Below are positions 1 to 17,001 of a stretch of DNA of 17,156 nt, piece after piece. Below the pieces are notes generated by a model. It saw nothing but the letters and a program-made list of their open reading frames with translations. It did no database searches and was not told the DNA's origin. The position numbers were made by a program, and so were the translations under genes. Position 1 is the stretch's first letter, and every line of letters begins with the position of its first letter. The DNA is from Pseudomonadota bacterium (GTDB taxonomy: Bacteria > SAR324 > XYD2-FULL-50-16 > JAHJRI01). The stretch is taken from NCBI GenBank assembly GCA_022360105.1, contig JAKSDL010000871.1:1-17156 (forward strand), in the 5' to 3' direction.

Positions 1-1055
1 AGCGGTTTCTTTTCATCTCTTTGATGAACCAGATATTGTAGGCTATCCTTGGAATAGAAACCATATATTTTGCGAGGAGGGTACTTCTGGGCATCATCCC
101 AAATCCAGGTATCGAAACCGTTGGAATAAAATATTACCGGGCGTTGATTATACTTACTTTCCAGTCCATCAGCATAGTCTATTGCTTGCTTTCTGCCTCT
201 TTCAGGCTCTACGGCTGTCTTCTTGGCTTCAATGATTGCCAACGGTTTTCCATCATCACCGGGTAATACATAATCTGCATAACCAACTCCTGAAGGGGTT
301 GGCTGATACTCAACTTCCATCTCCTCAACCACATCAGGTTGTTTTGTCGGGGACGATGTCAAGTTCCAGCCTACATCCGCCAATTGTGAATCTATCAAAA
401 ATCTGCGTGTTGCAGCCTCATCAAATTCCAGTTCATTCGCTACTTTTTCAGCCTTGGAGGCAATGCTCTGCAACTCGTCTGCTGTTTTTTCCGCTTCCAG
501 TCGTTGTTGGCGTTCTTGCTGAAGTTGAGCTAACAGTATTTGCATTTGAGATTCCTGTTTGGCATACTTCTCCAGCAATGCTGATTTCTCTCTCTTCAGT
601 GTTTGAGTATCTAGATTATCCTTGGTGGGAAGGATATAGTCCGGAAGTGTTTTGACATCGCCGCCAACAGCAGTAATATTTAGCCAGCGACCCAAATCGT
701 AAGCTTCTTTAACCAGTTGCACCGCAGCTTTTGAAGTACATTTTTCACCATGGGCTGCTTTGTTACCATATATCCGAAGGGCGTGAAGCTTTTCCTGAAT
801 CACTCTTGGTGTAGAAGCTGTGAAAGAGTCATTTTTAAGCAAGTCCATAAAAGTGGACATGGGTTGCTTAGGTAAATCATATGTTTTATAAACTGCTCCA
901 ACCAGGCATTCTCCAAATGCTCTTAATTTAACCAGAGCCCCTTCCGGGTCCGGATAGGCATAGCTTTCGGAAAATCCTCCCAATGAAGCCAATTCCGGCC
1001 ATTGCTTTCTTAAAAACTCAAAATTTTTAGATTGCATAATAATTTTTGTGTTCAT
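1..1055 (-). CDS. hsdR: Type I restriction enzyme R subunit, N-terminal part (truncated by window edge)
   Basis: This is the 5' part of the R (restriction/translocase) subunit of a type I restriction-modification complex. The reading frame is open from the ATG at 1055 to the window edge, about 351 codons. Residues about 35-130 resemble the DUF4145-type N-terminal domain of EcoKI-class HsdR (KLRAFGE, then LRIYGNKAAHGE). Residues about 150-212 form a charged, Glu/Gln/Lys-rich coiled coil. The HSDR_N nuclease domain follows with PD-(D/E)xK residues visible as D261 (ADYVLP) and E276-A-K278 (IIEAKK). The helicase/translocase motor and the hsdM and hsdS genes would lie beyond the left edge. Neither candidate start has a Shine-Dalgarno. 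The second ATG at 1037 (MQSKNFEFL) fits the usual family N-terminus better and suits the predicted transcription start, so 1037 is a real alternative. Intact nuclease residues argue for an active enzyme. Confidence 0.93.
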   Translation of the reverse strand, partial: MNTKIIMQSKNFEFLRKQWPELASLGGFSESYAYPDPEGALVKLRAFGECLVGAVYKTYDLPKQPMSTFMDLLKNDSFTASTPRVIQEKLHALRIYGNKAAHGEKCTSKAAVQLVKEAYDLGRWLNITAVGGDVKTLPDYILPTKDNLDTQTLKREKSALLEKYAKQESQMQILLAQLQQERQQRLEAEKTADELQSIASKAEKVANELEFDEAATRRFLIDSQLADVGWNLTSSPTKQPDVVEEMEVEYQPTPSGVGYADYVLPGDDGKPLAIIEAKKTAVEPERGRKQAIDYADGLESKYNQRPVIFYSNGFDTWIWDDAQKYPPRKIYGFYSKDSLQYLVHQRDEKKP

Positions 1056-1067
1056 GGCCGCTTAATC

Positions 1068-1083
1068 AGCAAAGGCCATGCCA
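1068..1083 (-). promoter_or_regulatory. Sigma-54 (-24/-12) promoter for hsdR
   Basis: Read on the minus strand the site is TGGCATGGCCTTTGCT. It fits TGGCAYR-N4-TTGCW at every defined position, with GG and GC separated by exactly 10 bases, and differs from the TGGCACG ideal at one base. It lies wholly in the gap between the stop of the sigma-54 activator gene and hsdR. With the usual 12-base distance, transcription would start near 1057, two bases before the ATG at 1055 and twenty before the ATG at 1037. The assignment is by motif and context, and the neighbouring activator strongly supports it. Confidence 0.82.
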
Positions 1084-1084
1084 T

Positions 1085-2590
1085 TTAAATTTCGATGCCG
1101 TATTTACCCATCCAATTAGTTAAGGTTTGGTAATTTTTCAAACCTAAATCTTCTGCTGCTTTTGTTTTATTCCCGTTGTGTTTCTGCAAGGCTCTTTCGA
1201 TGTAATGCTTTGCTACCATCTCCATAATATTCTGAATTTTAAACTCTTTATCAATTGAGCGAAAAAGTACACTTTCATTTTTAGTTGGTTGCTGGAACAT
1301 AGCTTCCTTAACATCATTTTCAGAAATGGACTTCCCTGAACTCCAAAGAGATGCTCTTAATAGAGTTGCATAAAGCTCACGAATATTGCCCGGCCAACTA
1401 TAGTTCAGCATAATATTTTTTGCCTTAGCAGAAATTTTTTTACCCCAATACCCAACTTGATCTTTTGCTTCTTCATTTATTTGTTCCAGTAGCCTTTCGC
1501 ATAGCAATCCAAAATCGCCGGTTCGCTCTCTTAATGGTGGTAATTGTAAAATACCAATCGCGACTCTATAGTATAAGTCCTCGCGAAATCGCCCTGCAGC
1601 CACCTCTTTTAGAAGGTCTTTATTAGTCGCTACAATGATTCTGACATTCACGGTTTTTTCTTTGGTCTCTCCCACTCGAACCAAGGTTCCATCCTGCAAT
1701 ACTCGTAGTAATCTTACTTGAGCATCCAATGGAAGTTCTCCGAACTCATCCAGAAAGAGGGTGCCTCCATCTGCTTCTTCGAAGTAACCTTTTTTATCAG
1801 TGTTTGCCCCGGTAAATGCGCCTTTAGCGTGCCCAAAAAGCGTAGAGTCAACTAGTTGATCGGGAATCGCTCCACAATTAAGAGCCAGAAAAGGTTGATT
1901 GCTTCGACCACTGGCATTATGGATGGCTCTGGCAAACAGTTCTTTTCCAGTTCCGGTCTCCCCAATGATCAGTACCGGCAGATTTCTTACGGCAAGCTGT
2001 GAGGCACGTACTTTCTGTTTATCGACCTGGGGGTTCTGGGTAATGATACTATCAAAAGCAGCATCAGGTCTCACGGGGGCTTCCATGAGTTGCTGCAAGG
2101 CAACATCATTTTTGGAGGCTAGCAAAGGCAAATACTCCGCTGATATGTCAAAAGGTATTTCAACATCTTTTACCCCCTCTTCAACAGATGACTGAATGAA
2201 TTTTGCGGCATATTTTGTTTTTCCTAATAGTACCCAAATTGCCGTCATTGTAGGGGTACCCGGACTTAAATGGATAACAATTTCAGCATTGGGATAATCT
2301 CGTTTTACATTTGACAAATGACGGTCAGCAGCGCCGTGAACAGCCTGAAAATCAACAGGTGATTTCAGTTTAATGTCTTCAGCTGTAAAATCGTTAATAT
2401 CGTAAGATCGAATCCATTCCAGATAAGGCTTAACATCTCTAGCAGGATAGTTATAAATAAGCTTAACAGCTGTAAAATCTCGCTTCTTTAAAGCTGCTAA
2501 TAACGGGCCTGGCAAAGCATCCTTTTCATTCATACTGGAATAAGCATTTAAATCTGCTGCCCCAATCCAGGAAACTAAAACTTTATCCAC
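1085..2590 (-). CDS. RtcR-like CARF-domain sigma-54-dependent transcriptional activator
   Basis: A 501-residue bacterial enhancer-binding protein. Residues 1 to about 165 form a Rossmann-like sensor resembling the CARF domain of RtcR: a start strand (VLVSWIGAAD), then IVIHLSPGTPTM at 104-115 and KYAAKFIQSS at 126-135. The matching stretch of E. coli RtcR has the same IHxTTGT...ARLIQSS layout. The AAA+ domain has Walker A GETGTGKE (210-217), the sigma-54-contacting GAFTGA loop (257-262), Walker B LFLDEFGEL (278-286) and an arginine-finger region FREDLYYR (335-342). A Fis-type HTH lies at about 463-498 (GNKTKAAEDLGLKNYQTLTNW). Start is GTG at 2590 with AAGG five bases upstream. There is no receiver domain, so control is by ligand. 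In RtcR, the CARF domain represses the ATPase until RNA-derived ligands bind. Here no rtcBA genes are nearby; the next gene on the same strand is hsdR, 29 bp away behind a sigma-54 promoter. It is therefore the likely regulator of this restriction system rather than of RNA repair (inference). Confidence 0.9.
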   Translation of the reverse strand: MDKVLVSWIGAADLNAYSSMNEKDALPGPLLAALKKRDFTAVKLIYNYPARDVKPYLEWIRSYDINDFTAEDIKLKSPVDFQAVHGAADRHLSNVKRDYPNAEIVIHLSPGTPTMTAIWVLLGKTKYAAKFIQSSVEEGVKDVEIPFDISAEYLPLLASKNDVALQQLMEAPVRPDAAFDSIITQNPQVDKQKVRASQLAVRNLPVLIIGETGTGKELFARAIHNASGRSNQPFLALNCGAIPDQLVDSTLFGHAKGAFTGANTDKKGYFEEADGGTLFLDEFGELPLDAQVRLLRVLQDGTLVRVGETKEKTVNVRIIVATNKDLLKEVAAGRFREDLYYRVAIGILQLPPLRERTGDFGLLCERLLEQINEEAKDQVGYWGKKISAKAKNIMLNYSWPGNIRELYATLLRASLWSSGKSISENDVKEAMFQQPTKNESVLFRSIDKEFKIQNIMEMVAKHYIERALQKHNGNKTKAAEDLGLKNYQTLTNWMGKYGIEI

Positions 2591-2769: not shown

Positions 2770-3564
2770 TTAACTCGAAGCGGATTCATAGGCGTTTAAG
2801 CAGATACGCCAGAGGAAATGGACAATAGTAGAACCTATTGTTATTGCCGCAATCATGCCTGCCAGGGGAATCCAATCCTTGATATCAAAAAGGAAACGAT
2901 TCGGAGCATTAAAAATCAGAAGCACCGGAATAACGAAGGTTAATACTTTTCGAATCAGATTGGCGTAGATAAAATCCGGCCAGCGAGATACTTGTTGAAG
3001 TTGCATACGTAAGAAATTTATGCCTGTCCCTTCCAACATCCAGAACATGCTACAAGAAATGATTATTTCAATCAGTCCGGTTAGCATAAAAGCCAGCGCC
3101 ACCAAGAAAGGTAGGATCACCCAGACCAGCCAGGAGAATCCCAGGTCAATTCCAAAATAGATCATGCAACTCCAGGGAATAACAAATAAGGGAGTACTCC
3201 CGGCCGAAATTCTGCGAAAGTACACTGAAAACAGAGAGCTGGCCGGTTTTACCAGAATAAAATCCAACCCGCCCTGCCTGATTAAAAGAGATAGTTCCCA
3301 AAAATTTGGTGCCAAAAATGACATCTGCAGATGATTTACGGCCAACACAAATGACATAAAAAACATCAATTGTTCACGGTTCCAGGTCCCAATGGTCTGC
3401 ACGTGGTTATAGATTATATCTACCGTTGCAAAAACCGAAGCATAGAAAAAGACATCCATCACAATCAGCAATACGAAATGCATGCGAAAGGACATGGCTT
3501 CGATAAAGCAGGTTTTAATGAATTCCCTGTATAAAGTTAGATAGTATTTCGTTCTGCCCAGCAT
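2770..3564 (-). CDS. ABC-2 type transporter permease (COG3694-like)
   Basis: A 264-residue integral membrane protein, third gene of a three-gene ABC operon. I chose the ATG at 3564 rather than a longer frame to 3645, because it follows the upstream stop (3567-3569) by two bases, has GGGG about eight bases upstream, and the extra residues would overlap the preceding gene. Hydrophobic segments suggest about six membrane helices (for example MHFVLLIVMDVFFYASVFA, VILPFLVALAFMLTGLIEII and a C-terminal LAGMIAAITIGSTIVHFLW). The stretch RQGGLDFILVKPASSLFSV, between the second and third hydrophobic regions, is typical of the COG3694 permease family, which occurs paired with a COG4587 permease and a COG4586 ATPase. 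The substrate is unknown. It would form the membrane pore as a heterodimer with the other permease. Confidence 0.85.
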   Translation of the reverse strand: MLGRTKYYLTLYREFIKTCFIEAMSFRMHFVLLIVMDVFFYASVFATVDIIYNHVQTIGTWNREQLMFFMSFVLAVNHLQMSFLAPNFWELSLLIRQGGLDFILVKPASSLFSVYFRRISAGSTPLFVIPWSCMIYFGIDLGFSWLVWVILPFLVALAFMLTGLIEIIISCSMFWMLEGTGINFLRMQLQQVSRWPDFIYANLIRKVLTFVIPVLLIFNAPNRFLFDIKDWIPLAGMIAAITIGSTIVHFLWRICLNAYESASS

Positions 3565-3566
3565 TT

Positions 3567-4361
3567 TTACATCCCCGCACCAGTATAGAGTTTCAACCCT
3601 TTTCTCCAGACAAACAGGATCAGCAGATTCAACAAAACTGTCCAAAAAACAAGATTGATAATTGCCAACAGAAATCCATCTCCTGTTCCCATAAAGGTCT
3701 TCACCGGAACAAAGGTCACATAAGGAAACGGCGTATAGGCAAGCATTTCAGCTGCCCATTCCGGGAACAGATCCAGGGGAATGATGTTGCCGGATAGCAA
3801 TTGAATGATTGTTTCCGCTATGACAGCTAGCACCCAGGTTTCTTCCAGCCAGAAAGTCATTAAACCGATCAGGTATTGTAGGCTGAACCAGAAAAATCCA
3901 ACCAATATTGCCAAAACCATCCCTTTGGCGAAACTGGTGGTTTCAAAACCGTTAAAAAACTGGGGAAACACAGTCAGCAGAAATACCAGGCTCAGCACCC
4001 CGATAAACATTTGGATGAACAACCTGCTTAGAAAATTGGTTACCTGGAATTCGTAAAGGCTGAAAGGGTAAATTAAATAGGTGGACACCCTTCCCAAACG
4101 AATGTCTTCGGACAGTTTCCCAAAATTATAGGAGCGGCTGATCAGCATCAGGATCATCGTCCAGAGATGATAAGTCAGCATTTCGGAAAGTGAGTAATTG
4201 CCAATCCGAATCTCTTCATCGCCTTGAAAAATGCTGTACCACAGGCTGATCTTAACAAAAAAGAAGACCAGGACCGGTCCCACTACCATCAATAAGAAAT
4301 TCACCCTATAAACCAGGGTATTTGACCAATGCACCTTAATGGTCTGCCACCATTTTATCAT
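3567..4361 (-). CDS. ABC-2 type transporter permease (COG4587-like)
   Basis: A 264-residue membrane protein, second gene of the operon. The N-terminus (WSNTLVYRVNFLLMVVGPVL) and the central SEDIRLGRVSTYLIYPFS segment match the COG4587 style of ABC-2 permease. About six transmembrane helices are apparent, with the conserved late motif SGNIIPLDLFPEWA before a final helix pair. The start ATG at 4361 lies three bases after the ATPase stop, with a good ribosome site (AAGGGAG) inside the end of the ATPase gene. This implies translational coupling. It is similar in size to, but clearly different in sequence from, the other permease, so the pore is probably heterodimeric. These three-gene exporters are widespread but mostly lack a defined substrate. 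Confidence 0.87.
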   Translation of the reverse strand: MIKWWQTIKVHWSNTLVYRVNFLLMVVGPVLVFFFVKISLWYSIFQGDEEIRIGNYSLSEMLTYHLWTMILMLISRSYNFGKLSEDIRLGRVSTYLIYPFSLYEFQVTNFLSRLFIQMFIGVLSLVFLLTVFPQFFNGFETTSFAKGMVLAILVGFFWFSLQYLIGLMTFWLEETWVLAVIAETIIQLLSGNIIPLDLFPEWAAEMLAYTPFPYVTFVPVKTFMGTGDGFLLAIINLVFWTVLLNLLILFVWRKGLKLYTGAGM

Positions 4362-4364
4362 TGT

Positions 4365-5372
4365 CTACTCCCTTATTCCTGAAGGTGCGCTTGCCAAAAG
4401 ATCCGGATTCTCCATCACCGTTTTCATTACCCGTTCAATGGGCAGTTTTTCCGTGTTAAATTCCACCACGGGCAGGTGCTGAAGAATTTCGATGGTGGCA
4501 TCTTTCAATTTTACATGAGGGATTCGCAATTCTACTCGTGTTCCATCATGATTCCAGTGTGGGTCGTATTGATCGAGTAAATGGTGGTTTCCGACAGCAG
4601 TTTCAAAATCAAAAACAACATTTTTTTCTTTTCCCAGCAAATTAGAGAAAGTAACAATATCTCCGTCAAACCGGTTCTCCCCTTTCAAAATAAAAACCAA
4701 GCGTGAGCAAAGAGCTTCGACATCCGCCATGTAATGGGATGTCAGTAATATTGTACAGTGATTTTGCGCATGATAATCCTGTATAAACTTTCGGATGTTT
4801 CGTTGGGCGATCAGATCTAATCCTATGGTGGGTTCGTCCAGGAAGATGATGTCCGGTTTGTGCAAAAGACAGGACATCAGTTCCACTTTCATGCGTTCAC
4901 CCAGGGATAGTTTGCGGACATGTACCTGAAGCAGGTCCTTGACATCCAGAAGTTCCGAGAGTTCTCCTACTCGATTCCTGAAATCGCTGTTACCGATCTC
5001 ATAATACCGTTGCAGCAATTGAAACGAATCCATGGCCGGCAGATCCCACCAAAGCTGGGATTTTTGTCCCATCACCAGTGCGATCTTTTTTCGAAACATC
5101 CTTTCCCGTTTGGCAGGCTCGTGGCCGATGATACTAACCAAGCCGCCACTCGGAACCACAATACCCGTAAACATTTTTATCAATGTGGTTTTCCCCGCCC
5201 CATTGGGTCCCAGCAATCCGACTATTTCACCATCGGCAATTTCCATATCAAACGGTTTAACCGCTTCCCGTATTTCATACTTCCTGTTCACAAAGGATTT
5301 GAGAGTCCCCACAAACCCCGGTTCCTTTTGATACAACCTGAAATTCTTGTACAGTCCCTGGCATTTAATCAT
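4365..5372 (-). CDS. ABC-2 transporter ATP-binding protein (COG4586-like)
   Basis: A 335-residue cytoplasmic ATPase that powers the two downstream permeases. Visible motifs are Walker A GPNGAGKT (55-62), Q-loop Gln103 (MGQKSQLWWDLP), signature LSLGE (155-159), Walker B IIFLDEPTIGLD (from 175) and H-loop His213 (LLTSHYM). The Q-loop followed by QLWWDLPA, and the roughly 90-residue C-terminal extension after the nucleotide-binding domain, are features of the COG4586 family that accompanies COG4587/COG3694 permeases. It is first in the operon; a plausible promoter lies just upstream at 5396-5423. The ATG at 5372 has no obvious Shine-Dalgarno, which is odd, but residues 1-10 (MIKCQGLYKN) give a normal ABC N-terminus. 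The function is export of an unknown substrate. Confidence 0.92.
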   Translation of the reverse strand: MIKCQGLYKNFRLYQKEPGFVGTLKSFVNRKYEIREAVKPFDMEIADGEIVGLLGPNGAGKTTLIKMFTGIVVPSGGLVSIIGHEPAKRERMFRKKIALVMGQKSQLWWDLPAMDSFQLLQRYYEIGNSDFRNRVGELSELLDVKDLLQVHVRKLSLGERMKVELMSCLLHKPDIIFLDEPTIGLDLIAQRNIRKFIQDYHAQNHCTILLTSHYMADVEALCSRLVFILKGENRFDGDIVTFSNLLGKEKNVVFDFETAVGNHHLLDQYDPHWNHDGTRVELRIPHVKLKDATIEILQHLPVVEFNTEKLPIERVMKTVMENPDLLASAPSGIRE

Positions 5373-7559: not shown

Positions 7560-8291
7560 TTATTTGGTAGTATTCTTGAAATTAGCGCCTTTGCAGATGG
7601 AATCTTTTAATTCGGCTCCTGTTAGATCTGAATTGGAAAAATCAGCATCTTTCAGATTTGCCCCTTCCAGGTTGACATTTTTCAAATCCGCAGAAGCTAA
7701 CTCGGTATTAACCAGTTCGCCGCCTTTGATATCGGCATTTTCCAGGTTGGCGTGGTTTAATTTTGCAAAAGAAAGATTAGCATCCCTGAGATTGGCATCG
7801 CTTAAATCGGCATCTGTGAGATCGGCAAAAGAAAGATTGGCTCTCAGCAGCGACAAATTTGCCATTGATGATTTGGAAAGATCAGCACCATTTAAATTGC
7901 AGTAAGAAAAATCCGCATCCGTCAGGTTGCAGTTAATCAGGGAAGTATTCACCAATTCAGCACTTCTGAAATTAGCTTCTTTGAGGTTGGCCTTTTTTGC
8001 AGATGCATTGGAAATCTCCACATGGGAAAAATCAGCATGCTCCAGATTAGCACCTTCAAAATTAGCGCCCGAAAAATCAGCTCCGTGAGCATCGATATCT
8101 TTCAGATTAGCCCCTTTCAGATTGGCACCGGACAAATCAGCATCCCTCAAATTGGCACCTTCAAAACTGGCATTTTTTAAATTGGCATTCTTAAGATTGG
8201 CATTTTCCAAATCAGCGTGTTCGAAAATTCCATCCGTACCTTCCTTGGTACGCAACAATTCCATTATTTCAGCTGTATTATCAGTTTTCAT
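7560..8291 (-). CDS. Pentapeptide-repeat protein
   Basis: A 243-residue protein. After a short N-terminal segment of about 24 residues, nearly the whole chain is A(D/N)LxX pentapeptide repeats (for example ENANLKNANLKNASFEGANL), about 43 in all. These predict a right-handed quadrilateral beta-helix of about ten to eleven coils. Characterised relatives include DNA-gyrase-protecting DNA mimics (Qnr, MfpA), but most have no known role. There is no signal peptide or membrane segment, so it is probably cytoplasmic. Start ATG at 8291 has AAAGGA seven bases upstream. It is monocistronic, ending at a strong terminator. The repeats break in places (HVEISNASAKK, SSMANLSLL), as is usual. Qnr-like function cannot be claimed: I see no clear Qnr loop insertions. 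Confidence 0.9.
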   Translation of the reverse strand: MKTDNTAEIMELLRTKEGTDGIFEHADLENANLKNANLKNASFEGANLRDADLSGANLKGANLKDIDAHGADFSGANFEGANLEHADFSHVEISNASAKKANLKEANFRSAELVNTSLINCNLTDADFSYCNLNGADLSKSSMANLSLLRANLSFADLTDADLSDANLRDANLSFAKLNHANLENADIKGGELVNTELASADLKNVNLEGANLKDADFSNSDLTGAELKDSICKGANFKNTTK

Positions 8292-13049: not shown

Positions 13050-13685
13050 ATGAAATCATCCAAGGGTCACATGACCCGAAAAAATATTGTTGAGGAAGCG
13101 TTACAGCTATTTTCGGTGAAGGGGTATTACAATACCTCTGTCAACGATATCCTGCATGCCACACATCTCACTAAAGGTGGGCTATACGGTCATTTCAAAT
13201 CCAAAGAAGAGATCTGGAAAGCCGTATATGAAAAAGCTGTATCCATATGGAGAGCCAGGGTTTTCAGGGGCATCAGGGAAATTGAAGATCCCATTGAACG
13301 AATTGAGCAGTTGATTGAAAACGACATGAGGGATTACCTGGGAGCTGATGTTTTCAAAGGGGGCTGCTTTTTTCTCAATATGCTGGTTGAATTGTCGGGG
13401 CAGTCTGCCAGCATGAGTCGACAGATTTTGAAGGGCTACGTGCAGTTTTCCAGATTAATGAGAGACTGGTTGCAGGAAGCCGGCGAAAAAGGCCTGCTAA
13501 AACCCGGCCTTAACTATAAAGATATAGCCAGTTTCATCGTGATTTCACTTAACGGTGCCTCGGCCATTTACACGGCATCAAGAGACGCCAATATCTGGCA
13601 ACAGACATCCATTCAGCTGAAAAACTATTTGAACGGATTGAGAATTCAGGCGGGAGTCACGGTCGCTGTAAGTGAATACAATTAA
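13050..13685 (+). CDS. TetR/AcrR-family transcriptional repressor
   Basis: A 211-residue repressor. The N-terminal HTH (about residues 10-55) has the family pattern: IVEEALQLFSVKGYYNTSVNDILHATHLTKGGLYGHFKSKEEI. The C-terminal ligand-binding domain (GGCFFLNMLVELSGQSASMSRQI, RDWLQEAGEKGLL) resembles the NemR/AcuR type. It lies 58 bp before the preferred icmF start on the same strand and probably controls icmF with itself, through the operator at 13006-13019. The ligand might be an acyl-CoA or reactive metabolite linked to the mutase pathway, but nothing in the sequence proves it. The start at 13050 has a weak GGA seven bases upstream. A second ATG at 13071 has a better AAGGG site and would still leave the HTH intact, so it is a fair alternative. 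Confidence 0.9.
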   Translation: MKSSKGHMTRKNIVEEALQLFSVKGYYNTSVNDILHATHLTKGGLYGHFKSKEEIWKAVYEKAVSIWRARVFRGIREIEDPIERIEQLIENDMRDYLGADVFKGGCFFLNMLVELSGQSASMSRQILKGYVQFSRLMRDWLQEAGEKGLLKPGLNYKDIASFIVISLNGASAIYTASRDANIWQQTSIQLKNYLNGLRIQAGVTVAVSEYN

Positions 13686-13743
13686 TTAGACGACTTAATT
13701 CAGACAGCAAGTAGTTAAAATGTTAACTTTATCGGGGAATAAC

Positions 13744-16700
13744 ATGTCCACACAAAAACAGATTTATAAACCGGTTAATAATGTCAGGGTTGTAACAGCC
13801 ACAGCATTGTTTGACGGGCACGATGCCTCCATAAACATCATGCGTCGTATATTGCAGGATGCAGGAGCCGAGGTAATTCACCTGGGTCACAATCGCTCTG
13901 TTCTGGATATTGTTGACGCTGCCATTGAGGAAGATGTTCAAGGTATCGCAGTATCAAGTTACCAGGGGGGCCACGTCGAGTATTTTAAATACATGGTGGA
14001 CCTGCTGAAGGAGAGAGGTGCGGACCAGGTAAAAGTGTTTGGGGGTGGCGGCGGAGTTATCGTTCCTGAAGAAATCAAGGAATTGGAATCGTACGGTGTG
14101 ACTAAAATATATTCACCGGAAGATGGCACAAACATGGGTCTGGTTGGGATGATAGAACATATGATAAAGGCAATGGATTTTCCCATCAAACCAAAAAACG
14201 GTTATGACCTGGGTCGGTTAAGTCCGGATAACAAGTCCGTTTTCGCTAATCTGATAACCGCCATCGAAAACGGCAACTGGCAAAAAGATCCCGCATTAAA
14301 AGTAGAAAAAGAAAAACTGATCAAAACAGCTGAAGCCAGTCAAACACCAATTCTGGGAATTACGGGAACCGGTGGAGCCGGGAAATCATCACTCACAGAC
14401 GAGTTGATTTTTCGTTTTTTAAACGACTTCAAGGATTTGACTATTGCCATAGTTAGTTGTGATCCCTCCAAACGAAAAACAGGCGGAGCCCTGCTTGGCG
14501 ATCGGATTCGCATGAACTCGATTGGCAACTCCAGGGTCTACATGCGCAGTCTGGCCACGCGTAAATCCCATACCGAAGTCCCGGAAAATCTCAACGACGT
14601 TGTTAACACCGTCAGGGCTGCGGGTTTTGATATCATCATCGTGGAAACCGCAGGCATCGGCCAGGGTGATTCCCATATCATCGATATTGTGGATATACCA
14701 ATTTATGTGATGACGAGTGAGTTCGGAGCCGCCTCCCAGTTGGAGAAAATTGACATGCTGGATTACGCTGAGCTGGTTGTGATCAATAAATTCGAAAAAC
14801 GCGGTGGAGATGATGCCGTTGCGGATGTCCGCAAGCAGGTACAGAGAAATCTGAAGGCGTTCGGTGAAAAGCTGGAAAACATGCCCGTTTATGGCACTAT
14901 CGCCTCAAAGTTTAACGACGACGGCGTGACATCTCTCTATCATGCGATTCTCGACAAAATTAAAGAAAAAACCGGACAGGAGTTTAAATCCAGTCTCCCC
15001 AGGACAAACAGTAAAACCTCCACCTCCAAAACGATCATCATTCCCCCTGACCGCGTCCGCTATCTCTCAGAGATCTCCGAAACAGTGCGCATGTATCATG
15101 AGGAAACCTCATCGCAAGCCGATCTGATACGAAAAGCCTGGCATCTTGAAGAGACAAAAGACATGCTGGGTGCTTCCAAAACACCTGCCGCACTGGAAGA
15201 AGAATTAAAACAAGCCGCTGAACAAATCACTGAAGAAAGTAGACAGGTTCTTGAGCAATGGAGGGAAGTTAAAGAAAAATACTCCGGGAAAGAACTGGTG
15301 TATGAAGTCAGGGGTAAAGAAATCCGTCTGCCCCTCTACACCGAATCATTATCACATACCCAAATACCCAAACTTGCCCTGCCCAAATTCAAGGACCCGG
15401 GTGAGATTTACCGTTTTATGAGAACGGAAAACCTGCCTGGTTACTTTCCTTACACAGCCGGTCTTTTTCCCTTAAAAAGAGTCGGTGAAGATCCTACCCG
15501 GATGTTTGCAGGTGAGGGAGATCCTGCCAGGACCAATAGACGCTTCAAACTTCTTTCAGCCAACTATGAAGCAAAAAGACTGTCCACAGCCTTTGATGCC
15601 GTGACACTATTTGGATTTGACCCGGAGGAAAGACCGGATATTTACGGTAAGGTCGGAACATCCGGTGTCAGTATTTGTACACTGGATGACATGAAAACGC
15701 TTTACGACGGGTTTGAGCTTTGCTTTCCGACTACTTCCGTGTCCATGACAATAAACGGACCGGCACCAATCATTCTGGCAATGTTCTTAAACACAGCCAT
15801 CGATCAGGAAGTTGCCAAGAGAACGTCCGAAAAGGGTGCTAAGGTTTCCGCCGATGAGTACAACAAGATCAAAGCCGACGTTCTGCAGAATGTCAGGGGC
15901 ACGGTTCAGGCGGATATACTGAAAGAAGACCAGGGGCAGAATTCCTGTATCTTTTCCATCGATTTTGCCCTGAAGATGATGGGAGATATCCAGCAATATT
16001 TTATCGAGCAAAACGTCAGAAACTTTTATTCGGTCTCCATATCCGGATATCACATTGCAGAGGCCGGGGCGAATCCTATTACTCAGACGGCATTCACCAT
16101 CGCAAACGGATTCACTTATGTGGAGTATTATCTTTCCAGGGGAATGCCAATTGATTCCTTTGCTCCCAATCTTTCCTTTTTCTTCTCCAACGGAATGGAC
16201 CCCGAATATACGGTTATCGGTCGCGTTGCCAGACGAATCTGGTCCATCGCCCTAAAAGAAAAGTATGGCGGAACGGCACGTTCCCAGATGTTGAAGTATC
16301 ATATTCAAACATCGGGACGCTCCCTGCATGCACAGGATATTCAATTCAACGATATCAGAACTACCTTGCAGGCACTTTGTGCGGTGTATGACAATTGCAA
16401 CAGCCTGCATACCAATTCCTACGATGAAGCTATTACCACTCCCAGCGATGAGTCTGTAAGAAGAGCCCTGGCCATTCAACTTATCATCAACCGCGAATGG
16501 GGCCTGGCAAAGAACGAAAACATGAACCAGGGAAGCTTTGTTGTAGAGGAATTGACCGATCTGGTGGAAGAGGCGATTCTGATGGAATTTGATCGTATTA
16601 CAGCCCGTGGCGGGGTATTAGGGGCAATGGAAACCGGCTACCAGCGAGGAAAAATCCAGGAGGAGTCAATCTATTATGAAATGTTAAAACACTCCGGCGA

Positions 16701-17001
16701 GTATCCGATTGTCGGCGTCAATACTTTCCAGGACAAAAATTCCGATCTCGAATCCATAGCCGGTGCCGTTGAACTGGCACGTGCCACCGAAGAGGAAAAA
16801 GAATCGCAACTGAAACGCCTGGCTGACTTCCACAAACGGCATGAAGACGAGTCTCCGGTCGCCCTGGAAAAACTGCAGCAAACAGCTCTAAAAGGAGAAA
16901 ATGTGTTTGCTGAGCTGATGGAGACCGTAAAAACCTGCAGCCTGGGCCAGATTACCAGGGCATTAAATGACGTGGGAGGACAGTACAGACGGAATATGTA
17001 G
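13744..17001 (+). CDS. icmF: Fused isobutyryl-CoA mutase / G-protein chaperone IcmF
   Basis: This enzyme is a coenzyme-B12-dependent mutase interconverting isobutyryl-CoA and n-butyryl-CoA, fused to its own MeaI-type GTPase repair chaperone. Counting from the ATG at 13720, the order is: B12-binding domain (20-150; FDGHDASI with cobalt-ligand His34, GGGGGVI); GTPase (210-430; P-loop GTGGAGKS 216-223, [10 protein letters not shown] at 308-317, nucleotide-recognition NKFE at 356-359); linker; then the mutase TIM-barrel (from about 560). The [15 protein letters not shown] segment is the Icm form of the substrate site, unlike the RPWTIRQY of methylmalonyl-CoA mutase. I prefer the ATG at 13744 over the one at 13720, because CGGGGA lies five bases before it and the earlier ATG has no Shine-Dalgarno. 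The resulting 1085 residues match the usual family length. It follows a TetR gene, its likely regulator. Confidence 0.95.

Follow-up and report, generated by a model that had tools for sequence, protein, structure and literature searches.

What switches on a type I restriction system whose hsdR gene lies directly behind the gene for a sensor-bearing sigma-54 activator? The question is raised by contig JAKSDL010000871.1 of a Pseudomonadota bacterium, analysed here over its entire length of 17156 bases ("the window"). Its minus strand carries the activator gene (2590-1085), a 29-bp gap and the 5' part of hsdR (1055-3), inside which it runs off the contig. A preliminary description of this DNA had noted a protein with a CARF-like sensor, a GAFTGA-bearing AAA+ domain and a Fis-type helix-turn-helix (HTH) directly before hsdR on the same strand, and the complete 501-amino acid open reading frame (ORF), its Pfam domains and the short gap bear this out. 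Judging from the sequence, the arrangement is probably a cis-acting, sigma-54-dependent alarm switch for the type I restriction system. The features concerned are as follows.

1085-2590, minus strand: gene for a CARF–AAA+–Fis sigma-54 activator of the RtcR_PspF2 family, 501 amino acids, GTG start (ORF; Pfam; model PDLC01995, 660 bits, residues 3-500)
2054-2590, minus strand: CARF sensor domain as modelled, residues 1-179 (model pLDDT 86; PDB fold comparison)
1556-2047, minus strand: AAA+ sigma-54 interaction domain, residues 182-345, GAFTGA intact (Sigma54_activat, 225.8 bits)
1100-1225, minus strand: Fis-type HTH, residues 456-497 (HTH_8, 30.4 bits)
1403-1441, minus strand: candidate enhancer (upstream activating sequence, UAS) within the activator ORF, codons 384-396 (synonymous-constraint peak; best match in the window)
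1410-1443, minus strand: 34-bp dyad register of the candidate UAS, 3 mismatches by manual count (consensus and axis of relatives)
1203-1215, minus strand: weak site resembling that of integration host factor (IHF), 1 mismatch, off the position conserved in relatives (motif match)
1068-1083, minus strand: sigma-54 promoter match TGGCATGGCCTTTGCT, 11 of 12 consensus bases (conserved in relatives)
3-1055, minus strand: 5' part of hsdR, 351 codons; first ATG at 1055, in-frame second ATG at 1037 opening the conserved MxSxNFE start (ORF and Pfam)

The sequence TGGCATGGCCTTTGCT in the gap (1083-1068) agrees with 11 of the 12 consensus bases of the -24/-12 promoters that mark a sigma-54 regulon; the next best places in the window have 9, and 100 single-base shuffles produced 9 sites of 11/12, a chance expectation of about 0.09 per window. 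The site was followed into relatives taken from a one-genome-per-species scan, in which 423 sequences related to the CARF domain came up; the 80 best loci were used, plus 7 loci on viral contigs that include two pairs with an identical activator. By a motif rule 80 of these 87 loci have a complete activator ORF, and the other seven are left out of the counts. Sites were counted within -5 to +60 nt of the stop codon, with the 3' ends of other genes of at least 150 amino acids in the same loci as controls, for 79 activators (the 80, with the 7 viral loci, but without L055, which lies too close to the end of its contig; the window is not among them). At least 9 consensus bases are found in 62 of 79 activators against 15 of 744 other gene ends, at least 10 in 58 against 5, and at least 11 in 44 against 1, and the site mostly starts 1-15 nt, at most 26 nt, past the stop. 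The sigma-54 half of the preliminary proposal is thus supported at the sequence level, the site being both present in the gap and conserved.

Linkage to hsd genes holds across genomes as well. An HsdR cluster is the next co-directional gene (at least 150 amino acids) in 52 of the 80 loci, and 44 of these also have hsdM and hsdS within the DNA covered (cluster identities were assigned by Pfam on one representative per cluster). The promoter site is present in 51 of the 52; L012 alone lacks it there and has an 11/12 site further on, directly ahead of a likely hsdR start. Among the seven genome loci left out by the motif rule, L015, L050 and L077 have an enhancer match and a promoter site of 10-12 roughly at the expected place and L070 has a site of 11, while L004, L022 and L059 have no enhancer match or promoter site at the expected place.

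The candidate enhancer emerged from a codon-level test of synonymous constraint, after a search of the flanking regions for a shared dyad had failed (repeats were common to at most 13 of 63 loci, mostly close relatives). An inverted repeat AGGTTTG..CAAACCT in the HTH codons of the window (about 1119-1141) was also rejected as enhancer, since no shared repeat was seen at that place in the relatives. The constraint test compared 63 activators with a promoter, the window included, in 1791 pairs of at most 72% identity, with each gene's own codon usage as expectation and a 7-codon window. Codons 384-396 form the higher of two peaks, with a ratio of up to 2.27 at codons 388-393 (mean 1.11, sd 0.19), and codons 445-453 form the second (up to 1.72). 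The first peak spells the dyad ATAAGA-N3-TTT-N10-AAA-N3-TCTTAT, which lies about 360 bp before the promoter at nearly fixed spacing. When each gene was recoded with its own codons and scored with a matrix held out from relatives of at least 65% identity, the enhancer reached p<=0.01 in 58 of 63 loci with the promoter against 6 of 17 without. The window scores 51.9 in this test against a recoded mean of 35.2 (p 0.017); with a matrix that includes the window, its enhancer scores 52.7 and the next best place -1.7.

Fifteen regions from sampled genomes served as a test outside the training set; 3 duplicates of earlier loci and 1 region without an activator ORF by the motif rule were set aside. Of the 11 loci scored, 9 carry the promoter no more than 60 nt from the stop codon. 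The enhancer reaches p<0.05 in 10 (L109 at 0.046), its best in-frame place in the last 600 nt being each time 354-375 nt ahead of the stop. L115 shows the enhancer alone; neither element is present in L118, which carries a divergently oriented 11/12 site. A search of 45 genomes for the dyad, with at most 2 mismatches, gave 30 places in 28 genomes. Coordinate comparison puts 25 of these places at the activator (24 inside it and, in L073, one in the divergent intergenic stretch) and 5 elsewhere; a reversed control pattern gave 6 places in the same genomes. The pattern was derived at activators, so it is the near-chance number elsewhere that is informative, and this scarcity away from the activator suggests that the enhancer is dedicated to its own neighbour. 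Exact dyads also occur on eleven viral contigs; activator motifs were looked for and are absent in the stretches examined, and these dyads were taken as chance. L039 has a further enhancer match, weaker (22.0) and directly ahead of the activator start (~9986, minus strand), and by eye L057 and L063 have similar stretches, which suggests autoregulation in deltaproteobacterial members.

The second constraint peak coincides in 26 of 63 loci with an exact match to the IHF consensus, in every case at -165 to -187 from the promoter; as controls, the 5' parts of these genes have such a match in 1 of 63 and other genes in 9 of 513. No match at this conserved position was found in the deltaproteobacterial loci or the window.

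Several observations weigh against the proposed wiring. In the window itself the enhancer copy is weaker, as its 3 mismatches and its p value indicate, the IHF-like site is off the conserved position, and hsdM and hsdS lie outside the contig. Among relatives, 17 of the 79 activators lack a site of at least 9 near the stop (some have one further off or divergent, and in some none was seen), the enhancer reaches p<=0.01 with no promoter within 60 nt in L007, L012, L018 (8/12 only), L035, L043, L078 and L115, and no copy of the dyad turns up in 17 of the 45 genomes when 2 mismatches are allowed. Control genes, run with a 9-codon window and a 75% identity limit, gave constraint peaks of 1.56 for HsdR, 1.68 for HsdM and 1.65 for RmuC, and 2.19 for HsdS; synonymous constraint alone is therefore not decisive, and the case for the enhancer rests on the other tests too. 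The HsdS peak lies around residue 160 of the L001 copy and is perhaps due to recombination in the central conserved region.

With these reservations the following course of events can be proposed. The CARF domain would hold the activator inactive until a signal of infection or RNA damage, a nucleotide or an RNA end, binds to that domain, a ligand-induced derepression that we infer by analogy with E. coli RtcR. The activated protein would then assemble on the palindromic enhancer within its own gene, the dyad presumably being its own binding site. The ~360 bp between enhancer and promoter would form a loop, with the help of IHF bound midway in many relatives, and the GAFTGA loop would remodel the sigma-54 polymerase waiting at the -24/-12 promoter just past the activator stop. 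Transcription of hsdR would begin, and in relatives that of hsdM and hsdS behind it. Gene order, the modelled CARF fold, the intact AAA+ and HTH domains and the conserved promoter match fit this course, as do the nearly fixed spacing of the enhancer-like dyad and its few other copies in the genomes; dependence on rpoN, the action of IHF and a role in phage defence are presumed.

The activator has the make-up of a bacterial enhancer-binding protein, namely an AAA+ domain with GAFTGA and a DNA-binding HTH. Pfam finds Sigma54_activat (225.8 bits), an AAA lid and HTH_8 (30.4 bits, cut-off 22), and both GETGTGKE and GAFTGA motifs are in the translation. Database entry P0001 is the same protein from a later start (482 amino acids), which would remove CARF strand 1; the 501-amino acid start agrees with the closest relatives, P0002 and P0003, each of 501 amino acids. 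Its full-length match is to the PADLOC model RtcR_PspF2 (PDLC01995, 660.1 bits over residues 3-500, against 237.3 for PspF1 and 201.6 for RtcR among the CARF_AAA_HTH models), and it misses the cut-off of the RtcR equivalog NCBIfam NF038308 (329.4 against 650 bits) as well as that of Pfam RtcR. The protein is therefore a member of a named sister family and not RtcR: "RtcR-like", as it was called at first, stands for the kinship and fails for RtcR proper. In an 80-row tree it falls on a long branch among Pseudomonadota members, with 56% identity to the closest row.

Its N-terminus models as a CARF fold. Pfam gives sub-threshold CARF matches only (Csm6_CARF 22.6 against 27.5; RtcR 18.7 against 23.1), and a sequence profile of the domain found nothing credible in the PDB (best E 0.66). 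A full-length model found only sigma-54 activator structures among the 50 PDB matches listed, so the domain was modelled alone (residues 1-179, pLDDT 86, 47-row alignment). The closest PDB fold among the matches listed is then Csm6 (6tug, E 3e-7), bound to a cyclic hexa-adenylate analogue, and the first 46 of the 50 rows listed are what we take to be CARF proteins (Csm6, ring nucleases, Can2, Cam1, Card1, Cad1). The CARF fold first suggested for the N-terminus thus passes comparison with solved structures. Its modelled strands, at residues 3-8, 41-46, 68-72, 103-107, 130-135 and 139-143, are six in number, as in the Rossmann-like core with a beta5-beta6 hairpin that defines the CARF superfamily (PMC4012209).

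What ligand would this domain bind? The best surviving alternative is that the ligand is that of RtcR, RNA ends with a 2',3'-cyclic phosphate and the involvement of RtcAB, so that the operon would answer RNA damage. E. coli RtcR is repressed by its own CARF domain, requires RtcAB and was not activated by oligoadenylates in vitro (PMC9650030), and RNA ends have been put forward as the ligand (PMC11090510); this proposal and the 201.6 bits to the RtcR model speak for a shared ligand. Against it, among the 44 host genomes searched (for 44 of the 80 loci, mostly isolates, and possibly incomplete), RtcA is found in 10 and RtcB in 20, leaving 34 and 24, respectively, in which none was found, and the closest solved fold listed holds a cyclic hexa-adenylate analogue. 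The family thus cannot generally depend on both proteins and, with the missed RtcR cut-off, an RtcAB-linked signal is not to be assumed; we regard a ligand shared with RtcR as possible and lean against it. Pfam was run on 12 of the 25 ORFs listed for the window and found no RTC or RtcB domain in them, and the gene downstream of the activator is hsdR. Cyclic oligoadenylate from type III CRISPR systems is unlikely as a general ligand. Matches to the Cas10 palm family occur in 16 of the 44 hosts, one of them strong (1.6e-17) and one middling, split into two pieces (4e-11), and Cas10 was rejected as an indicator of the ligand source because the E. coli control matches too.

A second alternative accepts the switch and changes its outcome: were the R, M and S genes all expressed from the one alarm promoter, an unmodified chromosome would be cut upon switching, and induction would be suicidal. 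In relatives these genes, at times with an RmuC-like gene, do lie close together behind the promoter, and the last 60 hsdR codons have no constraint peak that would suggest a separate modification promoter (maximum 1.35). A constitutive hsdM promoter could nevertheless escape such a test, and the 3' ends of RmuC genes are slightly raised (mean 1.28, maximum 1.60); we consider suicidal induction unlikely.

Codons 384-396 could instead be constrained by some element other than an enhancer, such as an RNA structure, an internal promoter or another protein's site. Synonymous constraint leaves its cause unnamed and peaks in HsdS too, and the dyad symmetry is imperfect (complementarity 0.497 against a median of 0.254, with another axis at 0.492). 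The stretch nevertheless co-occurs with the sigma-54 site, the window has no Rfam match anywhere, and copies are found outside coding sequence. In L073, from an acidobacterium, the copy in the ORF is indistinguishable from recoding (p 0.167), and a dyad with 1 mismatch and an 11/12 promoter occupy the space between the activator and an operon read divergently from it, which has a helicase-like second gene. In L012, activator and hsdR are separated by what by eye appears to be a decayed duplicate of the activator's 3' end, which retains an enhancer match, an IHF match CAACTTGTTGATA (by eye) and the 11/12 promoter 356 nt from the enhancer. We consider an element of another kind unlikely. That hsdR is an ordinary, separately promoted gene, with the activator acting elsewhere and a fortuitous -24/-12 match, is very improbable: some relatives do lack a promoter match by the stop or have another neighbour, and against this stand the near-fixed site of the relatives, its rarity by chance and the gathering of the dyads at the activator gene.

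If the alarm switch is as proposed, the hsdR start may be part of it. The partial product (351 amino acids) matches HSDR_N (36 bits, cut-off 25.1) and, barely, DUF4145 (23.2 against 23.1). Of 49 loci with the site and an MxSxNFE start, 47 have an in-frame upstream ATG (L014 and L016 have out-of-frame ones only). When the start point is predicted from the -12 element, an in-frame ATG falls at +1 to +4 in 46 of the 49 (+3 by manual reading for three loci with two upstream ATGs). A Shine-Dalgarno-like 4-mer precedes the upstream ATG in 25 of 47 and the second ATG in none of 49. Around the -12 element, a 7-pair inverted repeat was analysed in the 31 of 45 distinct sequences whose spacing is 11 nt (with its spacing of 12 nt, the window is not among them). 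Its covariation is 0.353 against 0.210 (sd 0.022) in shuffles, none of 500 being as high, and at most 0.226 when the repeat is slid; two of five measures are not extreme (103 of the 500 shuffles reach the number of pairs with a change on both sides, and 36 that of further pair types). The shuffles leave sequence relatedness in place and the window has only a 4-bp GGCC repeat in another register, so near-leaderless translation of hsdR and the blocking of read-through are things that we infer.

Our tentative joint reading, which we hold with much less assurance than the switch itself, is of a portable alarm cassette with a near-leaderless hsdR in the long-HsdR branch and a blocked read-through start. 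With the enhancer in its own codons, the IHF bend often midway and the promoter after the stop, such a cassette would make any downstream defence operon inducible. In the long-HsdR branch the promoter would let transcripts begin only about 1-4 nt from a conserved in-frame AUG, and the covarying inverted repeat could block the same start on read-through transcripts. Alarm transcripts would in that case be the sole source of the restriction enzyme, and even damaged ribosomes might be able to translate them.

The partners behind the activator do vary. Next genes other than hsdR include MoxR–VWA–HEPN in 4 loci and VWA–kinase in 4, and L043 has a Druantia type III DruH protein after the activator and a short ORF. 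In L051, L054, L061 and L066 a promoter match of 9-10/12 follows the activator and precedes a MoxR–VWA–RiboL-PSP-HEPN operon (L051 by Pfam), which is possibly a defence module. Target classes switch 19 times on the tree, against a possible minimum of 4 and a shuffled mean of 29.7 (truncated loci count among the 19 of the "other" class); partners have thus been swapped repeatedly, though not randomly. This suggests that one switch may be reused by unrelated operons: type I restriction-modification (R-M), MoxR–VWA–HEPN, VWA–kinase and Druantia type III. In even draws at E 1e-30, centre genomes included, the family was found in 5 of 369 genomes from the class to which G001, an Alteromonas, belongs and in 11 of 297 from the phylum of G002, a Desulfobacteraceae.

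The idea itself is not new. An RtcR-like family "often associated with restriction-modification" was described by Makarova et al. in 2014, with sigma-54 activation proposed (PMC4012209), and the linkage was extended in 2024 to RtcR–type I RM–CoCoNuT superoperons, for which an upstream activating sequence was supposed (eLife, PMC11090510). Restriction induced by a signal of infection or damage rather than always on has thus been a proposal for CARF activators since 2014 (PMC4012209), and those activators share with ours the architecture, the R-M linkage and the proposed activation. What appears to be new here is the wiring: a candidate enhancer, an IHF site and a promoter are located, which gives a ten-year-old prediction a concrete, testable form. 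The word "promoter" was not found in the main text of PMC4012209, nor "IHF" in that of PMC11090510, and the literature searched, these two papers included and supplements outside the search, held no located enhancer, IHF site or promoter. The PADLOC model RtcR_PspF2 matches the protein over its full length with no difference seen, and covers no regulatory sites. E. coli RtcR is likewise a CARF-repressed sigma-54 activator, and the rtcBA promoter region has UAS, IHF and -24/-12 sites (PMC9650030); RtcR targets RNA repair, whereas here the target is a restriction operon, the candidate enhancer is inside the activator ORF and the RtcR cut-offs are missed. A Geobacter RpoN paper (PMC2725144) was set aside as evidence on hsdR, which in the part available it mentions only in strain genotypes.

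The activator's upstream neighbours in the window form an ABC-2 type exporter, an ATPase and two ABC2_membrane_6 permeases (2770-5372, minus strand). Further off are a long pentapeptide-repeat protein (236 bits; 7560-8291, minus strand) and a TetR-family regulator followed by a fused B12-binding/MeaB/mutase protein (13050-17001, plus strand). In 19 of the related loci hsdR is followed by a gene of the RmuC family, in most cases with hsdM beyond it (cluster 4; L020:14920-16833, a Marinobacter litoralis copy that PADLOC labels RTasRmuC); the ShdA-like gene described for Pseudomonas in PMC11090510 may be this one. Six loci have a phage-type integrase gene two ORFs upstream of the activator (cluster 9; the L028:8179-9444 copy by Pfam), pointing to mobile islands. 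We note that the seven viral contigs (L081-L087) carry divergent relatives of the activator, one of which, L081, has a 12/12 promoter match 2 nt past the stop; phages or prophages may carry such switches.

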